Of a DNA stretch of 64,000 bases, positions 50,267-56,552 are shown one piece after another (positions within the stretch are counted from its first letter, which is position 1; the number at the start of each line of letters is the position of its first letter). Made by a program: the position numbers and the translations under genes. Source of the stretch: Qipengyuania qiaonensis (GTDB lineage: Bacteria; Pseudomonadota; Alphaproteobacteria; Sphingomonadales; Sphingomonadaceae); NCBI RefSeq assembly GCF_019711515.1, contig NZ_JAIGNO010000005.1, forward strand, positions 124,001 through 188,000, given 5' to 3'. Below the pieces are notes generated by a model that worked only from the letters and a program-made list of their open reading frames with translations, was not told the origin of the DNA and did no database searches.

Positions 50267-50872
50267 CTAGCTGCGGCTGGAGCCCTGACCTGCGGCCACG
50301 TCGTCCAGTTCTTCGAGAATGGCGCGGTGCGCGGCATCATCGTCGATCGAGCGCCGGGGAATATTCCCATCCGCGAGCATGGCGTTGAGCGCGGCACGAG
50401 CGCGACCGACGCGGCTTTTGATCGTGCCGACGGCGCAATCGCAGATCGTGGCCGCCTCTTCGTAAGAAAAGCCGCCTGCGCCGACCAGCAGCAACGCCTC
50501 GCGCCGTTCGGGCGGGAGCGTAAGCAGCGCACGATGCATGTCCGACAGATGGATCGGCTCTTCCTGTCCCGCCGGTGCGGTCAGCACGCGCTCGGCTACC
50601 GTCTCGTCGTACTCGCCGCGAAAGCGGTTGCGCCGCATGTCGGTGAGGTAGGCGTTACGGAGAATGACGAAGGTCCAGGCGCGCATGCTCGTGCCGGGCT
50701 GGAACCGGTCCTGTGCCGCCCATGCCTTAAGCAGGGTTTCCTGGACCAGATCGTCGGCCATGTCCGCCCGTCCGCAGAGCCCGCGCGCAAAAGCACGCAG
50801 ATGCGGTACGACTTCGGTCAGTTCGCGCTTGAAATCGGCCTGTTCGGAGGCCGTCCGTTTCTCGGCCGCCAT
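50267..50872 (-). CDS. ecfG: EcfG-type general stress sigma factor
   Basis: A 201-residue ECF sigma factor with only sigma2 and sigma4 regions. PHLRAFARGLCGRADMADDLVQETLLKAW is sigma2 and LLTLPPERREALLLVGAGGFSYEEAATICDCAVGTIKSRVGRAR is sigma4. These match the EcfG group that runs the alphaproteobacterial general stress response. Its ATG is nested in the stop codon of nepR (TGATG), so the anti-sigma factor and sigma are made in step. It recognises GGAAC-N16/17-CGTT promoters. Several such sites lie in this locus. Confidence 0.95.
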   Translation of the reverse strand: MAAEKRTASEQADFKRELTEVVPHLRAFARGLCGRADMADDLVQETLLKAWAAQDRFQPGTSMRAWTFVILRNAYLTDMRRNRFRGEYDETVAERVLTAPAGQEEPIHLSDMHRALLTLPPERREALLLVGAGGFSYEEAATICDCAVGTIKSRVGRARAALNAMLADGNIPRRSIDDDAAHRAILEELDDVAAGQGSSRS

Positions 50873-51042
50873 CAACTTTTGGAATCCAGCTTGTCGATCA
50901 GATCCTGAAAGCTGTCCGGCAACGGCTCTTCCACGACCGAATCGTAGAGTTGTTTCAGGCCGTTGGCCCAGTCCGGATTCTTTTCCTTGCCGCCTCCGGG
51001 CGATGAACCGGGAGGCGGGCTTTTCGGCGTGTCAGACGTCAT
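50872..51042 (-). CDS. nepR: Anti-sigma factor NepR
   Basis: A 56-residue protein, shorter than typical gene-finding limits. The conserved NepR core is WANGLKQLYDSVVEEPLPDSFQDLIDKLD (two helices), preceded by a Pro/Gly-rich disordered segment. NepR binds EcfG and keeps it inactive until phosphorylated PhyR sequesters NepR. It sits directly upstream of ecfG with overlapping codons. The promoter upstream is a perfect EcfG consensus, so the pair autoregulates. The residues PLPDSF and LIDKL are the family's most conserved. Confidence 0.93.
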   Translation of the reverse strand: MTSDTPKSPPPGSSPGGGKEKNPDWANGLKQLYDSVVEEPLPDSFQDLIDKLDSKS

Positions 51043-51133: not shown

Positions 51134-51158
51134 AACGCTCGTGATCCGGCCGTGTTCC
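51134..51158 (-). promoter_or_regulatory. EcfG-dependent promoter of nepR-ecfG
   Basis: On the minus strand GGAAC (51158-51154) and CGTT (51137-51134) are separated by exactly 16 nt, a perfect match to the EcfG consensus. It lies about 90 bp upstream of the nepR start. The match supports positive autoregulation of the general stress response. Confidence 0.85.
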
Positions 51159-51304: not shown

Positions 51305-52909
51305 GTGGTGATTTTCGCGCTGGTAACCGCAATCACAGTACTCAGCGTCTTTTCTATCGAACGAGGCGAGCTGGAGCGGGATGCGGCAGACGTATCTCGC
51401 AAGGCGCAGGCCATGACGTCGGCAATCGAACGGCGTGCCTATACCAGCTCGGCCTATTTGCGCGCCGGCGCCGCGCTGTTCTCGACGCAGGAAGATGTGA
51501 CGCCGGAGTTGTTTCGCCGGTTTGTCGCCGAACTCCGGCTCGATGCCAATTATCGCGGCGCTGAAGGAATCGGGTGGGCTCCGGTAGTCGGAGCGGAACA
51601 GGTGGCAGCATTCGAAGAGCGGCTGAGTGCAAGCCGCGTCGGCAATAAGTCGGTCGTGCCGAGCCTTGAGCAACGGCCCCGGGAAATCCTCACCCCCATT
51701 CTCTATCTTCAGCCGGACACGATGCGCAATCGCCGCGCGCTGGGATATGACATGTATTCCGAGCCTGTGCGGCGCAAAGCAATGGACCTCGCGGCCGCGA
51801 ATGACCGTCCGACGGCCAGTGGTCCCATCGTCCTGGTCCAGGAGGGCGGAGGCGATGCGGTCGGATTCCTGATCTACATGCCGGTGTTCGAAGGGCTAAG
51901 TACGGGCAGGGATCTCAAGGGGTTCATTTACAGCCCGTTCAACGCCTCGCAATTCCTCGATTCGGCGGGCGATCTGGTCAGCTATGAAACGGTTGGCGCC
52001 AGGCTGCGGGACGGCGAGGCGAACGATGGCGCCGTGCTGGCGCAAAGCGAGGCTTGGATCGAGGGCCGTCCCACGGTTGCGCGCGAAGTCAGCGTCGCCA
52101 ATCGGCGCATGTTGCTCGAAGTGCAGTCGGCCCGGGTCGAAGGCCTATCCTCGATGTCGATGATCACTTTGCTCTTCGGACTGGCCGTCGCCAGCCTGCT
52201 GATGCTGGTATCGCGCCTTCTGACTCAGCAGACGCTGGAAGATCGCCGGGCGATCATCTGGTTCGAGGAGCAGAACTCGATCCGCAACTCGCTGACTCGC
52301 GAACTCAACCACCGGGTCAAGAATACGCTCGCCAACGTGTTGTCGATCATTTCGCTGACAAAGCGCCGTTCCGACAGTCTGGACGAGTTTGCCGAGGGCC
52401 TGGATGGCCGTATTCGGGCACTTTCTGCGACCCACGATCTGCTGACCCAGTCTGAATGGGGCACCACTCCGATCCGGTCGGTGGTCGAAGTCGAACTTGC
52501 GCCCTACGCACGCGACGAGGATCAGAAGCTCGAACTGGTCGGCCCGCATACCGAGTTGGCCCCGAACGACGCCTTGTCGCTCGGTCTAGCGATCCATGAA
52601 CTGGCCACCAATGCGGCGAAATTCGGATCGCTGAGCGTGCCGGGCGGCAGTGTCACGGTTCGCTGGAGTCAGGTCAACGACACCTTGGCGAAGATCGAAT
52701 GGGTCGAAAGCGGCGGGCCGACCGTGTGCATGCCCCGGCGCCGGGGCTTCGGTACCGATCTCATCGAGAAAATCGTTGCACACGAACTGCGACACCCGGT
52801 CGAGCTCGATTTCGTTCCGGAAGGCGTGCGCTGCACGCTGCTAGTCCCGGTACGCGAACCGAGCGAATTCGAATTGCGCAAGAAGGGTCCCGGCGGTCGG
52901 GGCCATTAA
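51305..52909 (+). CDS. CHASE-domain HWE sensor histidine kinase (PhyK-like)
   Basis: A 534-residue membrane sensor kinase. A hydrophobic N-terminus and a CHASE-type periplasmic domain (about residues 35-260; motifs GIGWAPVVGAEQ and YLQPDTMRNRRALGYDMYSEP) precede a second membrane helix (about 286-305). The HWE/HisKA_2 kinase has ELNHRVKN with phospho-His 336, the N box LAIHELATNAAKFG and WVESGGP. This type phosphorylates PhyR. It lies between nepR-ecfG and phyR, so it is very likely the main GSR kinase. The GTG start gives a helix at the very N-terminus. A longer start at the in-frame CTG at 51233 would add the basic segment RKGRRRRWLIDYPRGIPV and may be the real one. Confidence 0.9.
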   Translation: MVIFALVTAITVLSVFSIERGELERDAADVSRKAQAMTSAIERRAYTSSAYLRAGAALFSTQEDVTPELFRRFVAELRLDANYRGAEGIGWAPVVGAEQVAAFEERLSASRVGNKSVVPSLEQRPREILTPILYLQPDTMRNRRALGYDMYSEPVRRKAMDLAAANDRPTASGPIVLVQEGGGDAVGFLIYMPVFEGLSTGRDLKGFIYSPFNASQFLDSAGDLVSYETVGARLRDGEANDGAVLAQSEAWIEGRPTVAREVSVANRRMLLEVQSARVEGLSSMSMITLLFGLAVASLLMLVSRLLTQQTLEDRRAIIWFEEQNSIRNSLTRELNHRVKNTLANVLSIISLTKRRSDSLDEFAEGLDGRIRALSATHDLLTQSEWGTTPIRSVVEVELAPYARDEDQKLELVGPHTELAPNDALSLGLAIHELATNAAKFGSLSVPGGSVTVRWSQVNDTLAKIEWVESGGPTVCMPRRRGFGTDLIEKIVAHELRHPVELDFVPEGVRCTLLVPVREPSEFELRKKGPGGRGH

Positions 52910-52952: not shown

Positions 52953-53744
52953 TCAGCCCAGTGGGCGGCTCGACCCGAAGAACAGTGCCTGACTGACCGC
53001 TGCGCGTACCGTCTGCTCTTGGAACGGCTTGGTGACCAGATAGGTCGGCTCCGGCCGGTCGCCGGTCAGCAAACGTTCGGGATAGGCGGTGATGAAGATC
53101 ACCGGCACGCTGCTGATCGCCAGAATATCGTCCACCGCATCGAGGCCCGACGACCCGTCCGCCAGCTGGATATCGGCCAGCACGAGACCGGGAGTTTTTT
53201 CCGCCACGACTTCCTGGGCCTGGGTGCGCGTGGCGGCGGTGCCGCAAACCTCGTGACCAAGCGACGTGATAAGATCTTCGAGTTGCATCGATATCAACGG
53301 CTCGTCTTCGATGATGAGCACGCTGGTCGCCGATTCCTTGTCGATCTCGGCAATGGCTTCCTGTGCTAGCCGCTCGATGTTCTCCGCGGAGATGTCCATG
53401 ATCTCGCCGGCCTGTTCGGCAGAAAAATCTTCCAGCGTGGTCAGCAACAGCGCCTGACGGTTGAGTGGAGTAACCGATTTCAGCCTGTATTGCGCGGCAT
53501 CTTCATGGCCATCGCCGCCTACCGTTTCCGGTACGTCCAGATAGGCGCTCGACCAGACTTTGTTAAAGGCGCGGTACAGCGGAACACGGCCCCCTTCGAG
53601 CGATTGTTTCAATTCGCTATCCGCCAGTGCGGCTTCCAGCGTGGCACGTACGAATGCGTCGCCCGTGGCCTGCGAGCCGGTCAGCGCACGCGCATAGCGG
53701 CGAAGATACGGCAGGTTACGAGCAATCTGATCACCAAGCGACAT
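52953..53744 (-). CDS. phyR: General stress response anti-anti-sigma factor PhyR
   Basis: A 263-residue protein. The N-terminal sigma-like domain (about residues 1-135) mimics EcfG so that it can sequester NepR. The C-terminal receiver has the acidic pocket IIEDEP, the acceptor Asp 191 in LVLADIQLAD and Lys 239 in LVTKPF. VPVIFITAYPE is the usual alpha4-beta5 stretch. Phosphorylation opens the two domains. It is transcribed away from the Fnr-like gene, and its promoter has a perfect EcfG consensus 30 bp from the start codon. It is the central switch of the locus. Confidence 0.96.
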   Translation of the reverse strand: MSLGDQIARNLPYLRRYARALTGSQATGDAFVRATLEAALADSELKQSLEGGRVPLYRAFNKVWSSAYLDVPETVGGDGHEDAAQYRLKSVTPLNRQALLLTTLEDFSAEQAGEIMDISAENIERLAQEAIAEIDKESATSVLIIEDEPLISMQLEDLITSLGHEVCGTAATRTQAQEVVAEKTPGLVLADIQLADGSSGLDAVDDILAISSVPVIFITAYPERLLTGDRPEPTYLVTKPFQEQTVRAAVSQALFFGSSRPLG

Positions 53745-53774
53745 TTAGACCCCTTCCTTAAGGTGCGCGCTTCA

Positions 53775-53799
53775 AACGTCCGGTGCCGGCTTAGGTTCC
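53775..53799 (-). promoter_or_regulatory. EcfG-dependent promoter of phyR
   Basis: On the minus strand GGAAC (53799-53795) and CGTT (53778-53775) are separated by 16 nt, an exact consensus match, with its -10 end 30 bp before the phyR ATG. It shows that phyR is part of its own regulon. Confidence 0.85.
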
Positions 53800-53883
53800 G
53801 AGCGGGCCGCCCGCAAGCCACCGTTTGACAAGCGAGCTTTTTCAAGGGCATGCCAACGCGATAGTATCGTTAATGGGGAGACG

Positions 53884-54636
53884 ATGGCCTTGCACGACGT
53901 AGCTGTTCCCATACCCTGTCCACAGTGTCCGTTGCAATCGTGTTCGGGCCTGCGTCGACTCGACGAACGCCAACTTAAGTACATGCAGGCGTTCAAGGGC
54001 GGCGAAGTCAGGCTCGACCGAGGCGATGTGCTGATCGATGAAGGGGGCGAACACGACCGGCTTTATACTCTTCTCGAGGGCGTTCTGATCCGCTCGCGCT
54101 CGCTTGAGGACGGGCGCCGCCAGATTGTGAACTTCATGTTCCCCGGCGATCTCATCGGTCTACAAGGGGCTTTCGATGAACCTTCCAGCCATACGATCGA
54201 GGCGCTGATCGATGCGCGGGTTTGCCGGTTCAACCGAGGCGATTTTGCAAATCTTGTCTCCAGCCTCCCCAGTCTTGCCTATGACATTACCTGGCTGGCG
54301 GCGAAGGAGGAAACTGCGCTCGAGGGGCATATCGTTTCATTGGGCCAGCGCAATGCTCGCGAGCGGGTGACATATCTCGCGGTCTGGCTGATCGCTCGCG
54401 CACAATCGACATGCCTGGCTGACGACAGCAATGTCGTTGCGCTGCCGATAACGCAGTCGCAGATTGCCGATATGCTGGGTTTGTCGCTGGTTCATACCAA
54501 CCGGACCCTGAGGCAATTGGAGCGGGAGGGACTGGTCCAATGGAAATCGCGCGAAATTTGCGTTCCCGACCTGACGAAGGCCGCCGATTATGCTCAGTTC
54601 GACTGGGACAGCGAAAGGTGCCGGCCGTTCATTTGA
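53884..54636 (+). CDS. Crp/Fnr-family transcription regulator with N-terminal cysteines
   Basis: A 250-residue regulator. The N-terminus has CPQCPLQSC (Cys 12, 15 and 20), a spacing one residue shorter than the cysteines that hold the oxygen-sensing [4Fe-4S] cluster of E. coli FNR. A further Cys lies near residue 111 (ARVCRFN). A cyclic-nucleotide-like beta barrel follows (DRGDVLIDEGGEHDRLYTLLEG), then a dimer helix. The C-terminal HTH is ITQSQIADMLGLSLVHTNRTLRQLEREGLV. I cannot tell whether it binds a cluster. It is divergent from phyR and lies upstream of the candidate sRNA. Its targets are unknown. Confidence 0.85.
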   Translation: MALHDVAVPIPCPQCPLQSCSGLRRLDERQLKYMQAFKGGEVRLDRGDVLIDEGGEHDRLYTLLEGVLIRSRSLEDGRRQIVNFMFPGDLIGLQGAFDEPSSHTIEALIDARVCRFNRGDFANLVSSLPSLAYDITWLAAKEETALEGHIVSLGQRNARERVTYLAVWLIARAQSTCLADDSNVVALPITQSQIADMLGLSLVHTNRTLRQLEREGLVQWKSREICVPDLTKAADYAQFDWDSERCRPFI

Positions 54637-54674
54637 CCGGATCTTACCCTTAAGGAAAAAATTTTCGGCCTCCG

Positions 54675-54699
54675 GGAACCCTAATCCGGGCGGCGCGTA
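54675..54699 (+). promoter_or_regulatory. EcfG-like promoter of the candidate sRNA
   Basis: GGAAC (54675-54679), a 16-nt spacer, then CGTA (54696-54699), one mismatch in the -10 part of the EcfG consensus. It points at a stretch without an open frame that ends in a strong terminator, as expected for an sRNA gene. It lies in the middle of the general stress locus. Confidence 0.6.
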
Positions 54700-54705
54700 T
54701 CCTCT

Positions 54706-54794
54706 ATGTCACCGCCGAGACCCCCCCCTCCCGTCCAAGCGGCTGGTGATACGATCCCGAAAGGCCCCCGTTGGAAACAGCGGGGGCCTTTTTT
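54706..54794 (+). ncRNA. Candidate GsrN-type general stress sRNA
   Basis: A stretch of about 89 nt between an EcfG-like promoter and an intrinsic terminator. The 5' part folds as ACCGCCG (54711-54717) against CGGCTGGT (54740-54747, one bulge) and exposes a 22-nt loop. The loop holds eight C followed by TCCC (54721-54732) and contains CCTCC, the complement of a Shine-Dalgarno core. The terminator stem GGCCCCCG/CGGGGGCC is followed by six T. C-rich loops are the target-binding site of GsrN in Caulobacter, an EcfG-controlled sRNA. Homology to GsrN is not shown here, only similar design and control. Confidence 0.6.
54763..54794 (+). terminator. Intrinsic terminator of the candidate sRNA
   Basis: GGCCCCCG and CGGGGGCC enclose a 10-nt loop (TTGGAAACAG) and are followed by TTTTTT (54789-54794). 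It is strong and oriented with the candidate sRNA. Confidence 0.9.
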
Positions 54795-54836
54795 CGTGGC
54801 TCGTCTATCTCGGGAAGTGCATCGACAAATGGCAGG

Positions 54837-55268
54837 CTAGCGCAGAGCGCTCCGCAAGCGGGAAATGATGCCTTTACGTTCGGGCTCACGCAGCAGATTT
54901 ACCAGAACGCCGGCATCGTACGGTTTCTCGAGGATACAGCCGAGTGCGGCAATATTCTTCGGAATATCCTGCGGAGCGCCGGTCGAGAAGATGATCCGGG
55001 GGCTATCCGGGCTCAAGGTGCGGACCAGTTCGGCGATGGCCCACCCATCGTCGCGATCTGCCAAATGAACATCGAGTACGATCACGTCGGGCCCATCTTC
55101 GCGTAGATGCCTTAAAGCTTCCTCGGTAGAAGTGGACAGTGCGACCTTAGCGACACCCGCATCGAGAAGTGCATTTTCAATGGTAAGGCCGAGCACGGCA
55201 TCGTCTTCAACAACCAGCACATGGGCCGGGAGCTTTTCGTGCTTGGTCGTAGCGGCGGGCTGCTTCAT
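54837..55268 (-). CDS. Single-domain response regulator (receiver only)
   Basis: A 143-residue stand-alone receiver. The acidic pocket is VVEDDAVLG, the acceptor Asp lies in VIVLDVHLADRD and the Lys in LEKPYD. No output domain follows. IIFSTGAPQDIP sits where FATGUY-type receivers have their motif. An EcfG promoter precedes it, so it belongs to the general stress regulon. Single-domain receivers in this pathway can act as phosphate sinks or relays between kinases and PhyR. That role is inferred. It is close to the sRNA gene, on the opposite strand. Confidence 0.9.
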   Translation of the reverse strand: MKQPAATTKHEKLPAHVLVVEDDAVLGLTIENALLDAGVAKVALSTSTEEALRHLREDGPDVIVLDVHLADRDDGWAIAELVRTLSPDSPRIIFSTGAPQDIPKNIAALGCILEKPYDAGVLVNLLREPERKGIISRLRSALR

Positions 55269-55308
55269 CGTCTCTCTTGAACCGGGCGAAGATCGCGATT
55301 GAAATGTG

Positions 55309-55334
55309 AACGGAACGGCGGCGGGCGCAGTTCC
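55309..55334 (-). promoter_or_regulatory. EcfG-dependent promoter of the response regulator
   Basis: On the minus strand GGAAC (55334-55330), a 17-nt spacer, then CGTT (55312-55309). The 17-nt spacing is allowed in the EcfG consensus. It lies 40 bp before the start codon of the response regulator. Confidence 0.75.
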
Positions 55335-55388
55335 CGGCGGTTGTCTTCCGGTCCATCAACGTGGCGCAATTGCGACAGCCCGGAAGCG

Positions 55389-56552
55389 TCAGGACAGTAG
55401 CGGCTTCTCGAAGATGGCATATTCGCGGTTCACGGTACTGTCGATGGCATCGGCAATTGCCATCATTCCCTGATTGTCATCGAGAATCCAACCGATCTCC
55501 GCGCGCCGGGCACCGAACTTCTCCGTAGCAGCATCGCGGATCTGGCTGATCATCATGAAGGCGAGCTGGCTGGCGAGCCGAGAATTGTGGAGTTCCTTCA
55601 GTACGCCCATCAGCGGCACGCGCATCCCCGCGCCCATGGGCTTGCGCATCCATCGCAGAATATGGAACCAGCCCAACGGCAGAAGCTTTCCATTCACCTT
55701 GCGCAGCACACCGTTGAGATCTGGGAAGGTCAGCATAAACGCCATCGGCCGCCCGTCGATTTCGGCGATCACGTTGAGATCGGGATGGATGATCGGCTTC
55801 AGTTTCTTGCCGGCATAGGCGATTTCGGCATTGGTGAATGGCACGAAGCCCCAGTTCTTCGACCAGGCGTCGTTGAGGATGGAGAGGATAGTTTCGACCT
55901 CGTCGTCCCAGCGTTTCACGTCGACGGGGCGGACTGTGATCCGGTCGTTGCGTTTGCCCGACTGCACTATGCGTCGGACCAGGGGCGGGAAATCGATCGA
56001 CACGTCGAGATCGTAAGTCAGCAATGTCTTCGAACGCGCGTAGCCAGCGCGTTCGATCCATTCCCGGTAGATCGCCGGATGGTGTCCCATCATGATCATC
56101 GGGTCGTGATCCTGCCCTTTCACGAGCAGGCCAGGCTCTTCCCAAATCGACATCGAAATCGGGCCGATCGCGCGATCCATGCCCTGACTGCGCAACCATT
56201 CCTCGGCCTTATCAAGCATCGCATGGGCGATCGTTTCGTCCGCGGCATCGAAATAGCCGAACATTCCCGCTCCAGGGCCGAAGCCTTGCTCGCGCGGCAA
56301 TTCGAGCGCGAGGCGATCGATATGCGCCGAGATACGACCCACCGCCTTTCGGCCGCGACGCGCGATGAACAGCTGGTGCGAGGCATGGCCGAAAAAGGGG
56401 TTTTTGCCGGGATCGACCAGTTCGAGCTGCTCGGATCGCAGTTGCGGCACCCAATGCGGTTCGCGCGCGGCGAAGGCACGGCCAATGTCGACGAACTCGG
56501 CGCGTCCCTTCTTGCCTTCGACCGGCTCGATCACCACATTTCCCTCTGACAT
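55389..56552 (-). CDS. GNAT-fold protein of the YghO type
   Basis: A 387-residue protein. The N-terminal half carries FVDIGRAFAAREPHWVPQLRSEQ, then SHQLFIARRGRKAVGRISAHIDRLALE, a typical acetyltransferase strand-loop pair. The second half has SKNWGFVPFTNAEIAYAGKKLKPI. The layout resembles the uncharacterised E. coli YghO and its relatives, which contain a GNAT domain. The substrate is unknown. It is transcribed alone and has no close functional neighbour. Confidence 0.6.
   Translation of the reverse strand: MSEGNVVIEPVEGKKGRAEFVDIGRAFAAREPHWVPQLRSEQLELVDPGKNPFFGHASHQLFIARRGRKAVGRISAHIDRLALELPREQGFGPGAGMFGYFDAADETIAHAMLDKAEEWLRSQGMDRAIGPISMSIWEEPGLLVKGQDHDPMIMMGHHPAIYREWIERAGYARSKTLLTYDLDVSIDFPPLVRRIVQSGKRNDRITVRPVDVKRWDDEVETILSILNDAWSKNWGFVPFTNAEIAYAGKKLKPIIHPDLNVIAEIDGRPMAFMLTFPDLNGVLRKVNGKLLPLGWFHILRWMRKPMGAGMRVPLMGVLKELHNSRLASQLAFMMISQIRDAATEKFGARRAEIGWILDDNQGMMAIADAIDSTVNREYAIFEKPLLS

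Follow-up and report, generated by a model that had tools for sequence, protein, structure and literature searches.

A probable small RNA gene with an EcfG-type promoter and a C-rich loop beside phyR in Qipengyuania and related genera

Does the general stress locus of Qipengyuania qiaonensis encode an RNA arm of the response in addition to its sigma factor and regulators? To our knowledge, the alphaproteobacterial general stress response has mostly been described at the level of transcription, and GsrN is its best-studied RNA arm. The question is raised by a short stretch beside phyR in the 64,000 nucleotides of DNA that were analysed as a whole (the window), where an earlier note had proposed a GsrN-type stress sRNA. 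Comparison with related genomes strongly supports an sRNA gene at 54675-54794 whose promoter is of the EcfG type and whose loop is C-rich. The RNA beside phyR is very probably regulatory and switched on by stress. We judge with considerable confidence that this is a stand-alone, EcfG-controlled sRNA of about 89 nt, whose C-rich loop would pair with G-rich sites in mRNAs.

The predicted RNA and its promoter

The features of the locus are collected in table 1. The −35 box GGAAC (54675-54679) is followed, after a spacer of 16 nt, by CGTA (54696-54699). The predicted RNA starts with the A at 54706 and extends for 89 nt to 54794. Its loop holds eight C (54721-54728), then T and CCC, and the GC-rich terminator hairpin ends in six T (54789-54794). 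The earlier note had described an EcfG-like promoter and a strong intrinsic terminator that bound an RNA of about 89 nt, and a 5' hairpin with an open loop of eight C and TCCC. Both descriptions agree with direct reading and with the predicted fold: the 54706-54794 RNA has a folding energy of −45.2 kcal/mol (z −5.44), 0 of 200 shuffles were equally stable, and a longer stretch around the sRNA gave z −4.33. A simple scanner run over 53700-55400 reported no terminator, and a single sigma-70-like sequence as promoter. The GGAAC/−10 pattern occurs five times in the window against 3.04 expected from shuffled sequence. As the pattern alone is thus not beyond chance here, conservation must carry the argument, and the EcfG-type promoter is significant because its position is kept across genomes. 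The same GGAAC −35 motif, paired with CGTT, was found by the pattern search upstream of nepR-ecfG, phyR and the receiver gene.

Table 1. Features of the sRNA gene and the surrounding stress locus (window coordinates; samples of loci and members as defined in the text).
Feature	Position	Strand	Basis
EcfG-type promoter GGAAC-N16-CGTA	54675..54699	+	direct reading; GGAAC at N16 in 30/30 + 40/40 loci
A/T tract AAAAAATTTT, UP-element-like, 5' of −35	54656..54665	+	alignment
sRNA gene, predicted 89-nt transcript	54706..54794	+	fold, covariance model, covariation
5' hairpin presenting C-rich loop	54707..54751	+	folding; helix 97.4% paired, 56 rows
C8-TCCCGTCCAA loop, predicted targeting seed	54721..54738	+	loop-core column identity
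Single-stranded linker CGATCCC, conserved	54752..54758	+	mean column identity 0.91, 40 diverse members
Intrinsic terminator hairpin and T-tract	54759..54794	+	folding, covariation
phyR, constant divergent neighbour	52953..53744	-	PF22029, PF22233, PF00072
Fnr/Crp-type regulator, lineage-specific neighbour	53884..54636	+	PF00027, PF13545
Receiver-only response regulator, convergent	54837..55268	-	PF00072; present in 29/40 diverse loci
GGAAC/CGTT upstream of receiver gene	55309-55334		promoter match
ecfG sigma factor	50267..50875	-	Pfam sigma-70 r2/r4
nepR, just upstream of ecfG	about 50872-51042		NF051865 match well below cut-off
GGAAC/CGTT before nepR-ecfG	51134-51158		promoter match
CHASE-domain HWE histidine kinase, stress locus	51305..52909	+	PF03924, PF07536

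Conservation, distribution and synteny

Matches to the window DNA of the sRNA were present in all 48 sampled genomes of the same genus and in none of 31 sampled genomes from other families of the order. The best 30 loci from the 49 genomes matched, own included, were aligned, and their 5' hairpin and loop are nearly letter-identical. A covariance model built from these 30 Qipengyuania loci matched 126 of 298 sampled genomes of the family; at 55 bits or more it found 118 of the 298, with one such copy each, in 40 of 96 genera. Eight of the 126 gave only matches below 37 bits. Two of these (L389, L390) are true members cut at contig ends; the other six are terminators with no GGAAC in the 60 nt upstream, and were rejected. 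Three further weak matches lie in genomes that hold a strong copy (L387, L388, L396), and none has GGAAC in the same distance. Plain terminators explain most weak matches of the model. The last of these three, L396:4057-4143 in a Qipengyuania genome (G044), shows a hairpin loop with CCCTCTCCCGTC before a terminator at the end of an open reading frame, and is perhaps a 3'-UTR element.

Beyond the family the model found little. The order sample gave matches in 50 of 196 genomes: 48 strong ones, all from the own family, a diverged true member (G450, locus L385) and a weak match outside the family (G395). In the class sample, five of 289 genomes matched, three of them from the own family; the two weak matches (L113, L114) are, on reading, unlike this sRNA. 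Sampled genomes of the order (196) and class (289) thus hold no convincing match outside the family. For genera without a strong match, 30 genomes were chosen, four of them from other families and three with a weak match. PhyR matches in 21 of the 30 gave 23 loci, and a full-sensitivity model search of these found nothing above 16.7 bits. In many of the 23, as judged by eye and unscored, phyR directly faces a nepR-like reading frame.

The named carriers among the matches listed amount to at least 119 pieces, one chance match included. They come mostly from Erythrobacteraceae and Novosphingobium: Qipengyuania, Erythrobacter, Porphyrobacter, Altererythrobacter, Croceibacterium, Croceicoccus, Pontixanthobacter, Tsuneonella, Pelagerythrobacter, Citromicrobium, Aurantiacibacter, Novosphingobium, one Blastomonas record and metagenome-assembled genomes (MAGs) are among the matches listed. 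The chance match is a cyanobacterial MAG contig (L166) that fits the loop pattern when gaps are allowed, but has neither the exact loop nor a phyR match. The diverged orthologue (L385:4032-4127) adjoins phyR and keeps both the hairpin and a promoter, GGAAC-N16-CGTT; its loop, CTCCCCACCTCCCCCC, is still C-rich and contains ACCUCC, which resembles the 16S anti-Shine-Dalgarno (anti-SD) sequence. Two EcfG matches lie in the stress locus of this genome.

Finer comparison used 40 diverse loci of 14 kb each, drawn from the weaker-scoring family matches. Across these the loop core CCCCTCCCGTCC has a mean column identity of 0.996, whereas the terminator reaches 0.766 on the 5' side of its stem and 0.457 in its loop; the C-run itself varies from 5 to 9 among the loci compared. 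A seed would be expected to vary less than the stems and the terminator, as this loop core does. The structure is also conserved. In an alignment of 56 members that was itself fitted to the structure of the model, pairing holds in 97.3% of pair cells and two-sided changes occur in 16 of 26 pairs, a level that none of 500 shuffles, which ignore relatedness, reached. Most of these pairs lie in the terminator, where 14 of 15 show a two-sided change in one member or more, against two of 11 in the 5' helix. Upstream of the promoter, at −18 to −12 relative to GGAAC, A or T stands in 32-39 of the 40 diverse loci (alignment on GGAAC), and the A/T tract may play an UP-element-like role. The linker between the hairpins is possibly a processing site or a second pairing site.

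The constant neighbour of the gene is phyR. It lies divergently beside the sRNA in 40/40 diverse loci, 36 directly and four with an Fnr gene between, and ecfG and the kinase are each found in 34/40 of these 14-kb stretches. The 30 Qipengyuania loci (about 3 kb each) hold phyR in 29 and Fnr in 26, and 103/119 pieces of the named set hold phyR, with several sites so near the piece edge that absence is uninformative. A position between an Fnr-like regulator and a stress response regulator, as first noted, is therefore correct for the window, and its Fnr side for most Qipengyuania loci, but with Fnr in only four of the 40 diverse loci it is phyR that is constant. The nearest downstream gene among those queried (the receiver gene or that of the 55389 protein) is convergent in 40/40 loci, so the RNA stands alone. 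A 387-aa protein (55389-56552, minus strand) is conserved near the stress locus in 40/40 diverse loci and matches nothing in Pfam or NCBIfam at E 0.001.

Hairpin, C-rich loop and promoter, on whose conservation in related genomes the earlier note had staked its proposal, are thus all three conserved, and its central claim, that the stress locus encodes an sRNA with a C-rich loop behind an EcfG-type promoter, is backed by conservation, covariation and synteny with phyR.

Mode of action and alternative readings

The mechanism that we favour would run as follows. (i) Phosphorylated PhyR would bind NepR and EcfG would be freed. (ii) RNA polymerase carrying EcfG would transcribe the sRNA gene from GGAAC-N16-C(A/G)TN, and the intrinsic terminator would end the transcript. 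(iii) The 5' hairpin would keep the loop CCCCTCCCGTCC open. (iv) This loop would pair with G-rich sequences, mainly ribosome binding sites of the GGGAGG type or 5' leaders. (v) Pairing would alter the translation and stability of several mRNAs, and the sRNA would give the general stress response a post-transcriptional arm comparable to GsrN in Caulobacter. When a C-rich loop hardly varies and the structure that carries it is conserved and partly covaries, this usually signals a pairing seed.

Targets were sought in several ways. The one place in the own genome with the perfect 12-nt complement of the loop is the antisense strand of the sRNA itself; with up to one mismatch there are 19 matches, against 24 for a reversed-pattern control. 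The motif GGGAGGGG was found 3-10 nt before ATG 75 times in five genomes and its reversed control, in which the SD content is not kept, 22 times. Thirty of these matches were taken as loci, 19 stretches were retrieved, and starts with at least 40 codons were compared between genomes. The leader of pntA2 matches in three of five Qipengyuania genomes and is not kept in the family, where the median duplex is −12.6 kcal/mol in 19 carriers and 10 non-carriers alike; the five strongest duplexes (−18 or lower) all come from carriers. Leaders of the locus genes are unexceptional, with medians at the 16th percentile for phyR, the 26th for nepR and the 7th for Fnr (four loci only). Those of TonB receptors are weakly shifted (p 0.003, with an imperfect background for comparison). 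In the own genome, two inverted copies of GGCCGGGAGGGGGCGTGGGATG lie 25 bases apart (contig 22, 363383-363451), and another genome (G021) has a similar inverted pair.

These limited searches, which covered complements, GGGAGGGG sites, pntA2, the locus genes and TonB receptors, returned no conserved target. For that reason the pairing step is one that we infer, and a competing account stays alive, in which the loop titrates a protein or competes for SD sequences generally, without pairing to specific mRNAs. The near-invariance of the loop in 40 diverse members also speaks for this account, as it goes beyond the strict need of a seed that faces changing targets, and so does the resemblance of the loop to the 16S anti-SD. 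The diverged orthologue, however, has changed its loop letters and kept only their C-richness, and the target null comes from a search limited to the sets just named. We consider titration or SD competition unlikely, if worth keeping in view.

All 30 Qipengyuania loci carry GGAAC with CATT or CGTA exactly 16 nt on. GGAAC at N16 is likewise present in 40/40 diverse loci, where the −10 box is CATT in 36, CGTT in two, CGGT in one and CTTT in one; its first base is C and its fourth T in 40/40. In the named set, GGAAC precedes the loop in 117/119 loci (the exceptions are L166, which lacks the loop, and L212, which is cut at the locus edge), with a recognisable −10 box at N16 in 114 and CGTT in 12/119. 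The window has CGTA where most relatives have CATT. Promoter class and locus together point to EcfG control.

Within one regulon, CGTT stands upstream of phyR in 34/40 loci and of ecfG in 34/34, against CATT before the sRNA in 36/40: a conserved departure from the consensus. This divergence is what could suggest that GGAAC/CATT serves sigma-70 or an ECF factor other than EcfG, leaving the RNA outside EcfG control. According to the available text of a study of EcfG promoters in Sphingopyxis granuli, however, few non-consensus −10 boxes are more frequent there than CATT, and mutation of CGTT to CATT lowered transcription in vitro (PMC7083833); in that species CATT thus occurs among EcfG promoters and is transcribed in vitro. 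The constant GGAAC at N16 in both sets of loci, the CGTA of the window and the CGTT of 12 named loci also argue against a different sigma factor, which we regard as improbable.

It is very improbable that the region is a short protein-coding gene, or a leader or attenuator of a downstream gene. An ATG does stand at 54706, and 22 of 56 rows have a start codon within 15 nt of the 5' end, followed by 20 or more open codons. The C-run, however, varies from 5 to 9 and would break any frame, which marks the region as non-coding; the 5'-end ATG is absent in 36/56 rows and kept in only 20/56, which leaves the overlapping open reading frames unsupported; and the stems covary, and the nearest queried downstream gene is convergent throughout the 40 loci. 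Scarcely any weight falls on the reading that the element is no more than a conserved terminator that ends transcription of the convergent receiver gene, perhaps in both directions: the terminator is the strongest helix and plain terminators explain most weak model matches, but promoter boxes and loop are the most conserved parts, and the element is kept in 11/40 loci without a receiver match.

Comparison with known small RNAs

At gathering score, Rfam 15 finds only two tRNAs in the window and nothing in the sRNA loci of six relatives. Weaker Rfam matches of the element fall mostly on the terminator. One, to the Caulobacter sRNA CC2171 (RF01867; 23.7 bits, E 0.003), shares a GC-rich terminator and was rejected, as it covers 29 of 159 model positions and lies far below the gathering score of 75. 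A search of open-access literature found no GsrN homologue in sphingomonads. A term search of the main text of PMC6599016 and PMC7083833 found no mention of sRNA, small RNA or GsrN, and the parts available of PMC12148442, PMC9505733, PMC4741004 and PMC5463345 hold nothing on this stress-locus RNA.

The Rhizobiales sRNAs SmelA075 and SmelA099, as described in the available text of PMC3927594, resemble the present RNA in a conserved anti-SD-like C-rich loop on variable stems. They differ in having three and four hairpins with CCUCCUCCC loops, against one CCCCUCCCGUCC hairpin here, and no link to an EcfG locus is described in that text. The SmelA075 type is defined by at least three hairpins with CCUCCUCCC loops; this RNA has a single CCCCTCCCGTCC hairpin and a terminator.

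GsrN (CCNA_R0081) is the closer parallel. The available parts of the GsrN paper (Tien et al. 2018, PMC5869019) report it from Caulobacter crescentus and other Caulobacteraceae, with predicted counterparts in rhizobia. It is driven by sigma-T/EcfG, measures about 100 nt and uses a C-rich 5' loop to pair with G-rich mRNA; it acts in this way on the katG leader and is predicted to do so at other G-rich sites. Further traits of GsrN are dependence of the transcript on EcfG, processing to a 5' isoform that is stable, and stabilisation through Hfq. Those parts also state that Erythrobacter litoralis has no apparent gsrN-like gene. The survey relied on an EcfG site close to consensus, proximity to the locus and public transcriptome data, and the methods describe a strict GGAAC/CGTT scan; its use on E. 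litoralis, and the strain, are not stated there (PMC5869019). In a genome matching E. litoralis HTCC2594 (G285), the covariance model finds the sRNA at 78.5 bits behind GGAAC-N16-CATT, a promoter that a strict GGAAC/CGTT scan would miss. The family would thus extend the RNA arm of the stress response to a large sphingomonad branch that includes this genome. Its promoter, loop and stems are resolved in enough detail to allow a direct test by knock-out and pulldown.

As to descent, the model has no convincing match outside the family in the 289 class genomes, with GsrN itself compared through its published targets only. A tentative possibility is an origin of the sRNA within the Erythrobacteraceae-Novosphingobium lineage, separate from that of GsrN and accompanied by rearrangement of the stress locus. 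If so, EcfG systems would have gained a C-rich-loop RNA more than once, the conserved suboptimal −10 box (CATT) would restrict firing to high EcfG activity, and the loop, being near-invariant, would serve for a type of site shared by many mRNAs, such as SD sequences.

With GsrN the RNA shares an EcfG/sigma-T promoter motif, with GGAAC at N16 and the strict CGTT in a minority; the usual position near ecfG-nepR-phyR, with phyR in 40/40 and ecfG in 34/40 diverse loci; and, as a predicted structure, a length of about 90-100 nt, a 5' hairpin whose C-rich loop is exposed, and a terminator at the 3' end. In contrast to GsrN, the −10 box is mostly CATT, and the gene lies beside phyR in 40/40 diverse loci, whereas in C. 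crescentus gsrN is distal. The loop here is CCCCTCCCGTCC, whereas GsrN targets such as AAGUCGGGGGGCG imply another seed (PMC5869019). The label GsrN-type accordingly fits in architecture, promoter class and position, but does not extend to the seed. On present comparison the RNA is best read as an EcfG-controlled sRNA that would act in trans, much as GsrN does in Caulobacter but through another seed, and its relatives as a probable lineage-specific family of EcfG-controlled C-rich-loop sRNAs, to be grouped with GsrN by those three shared traits.
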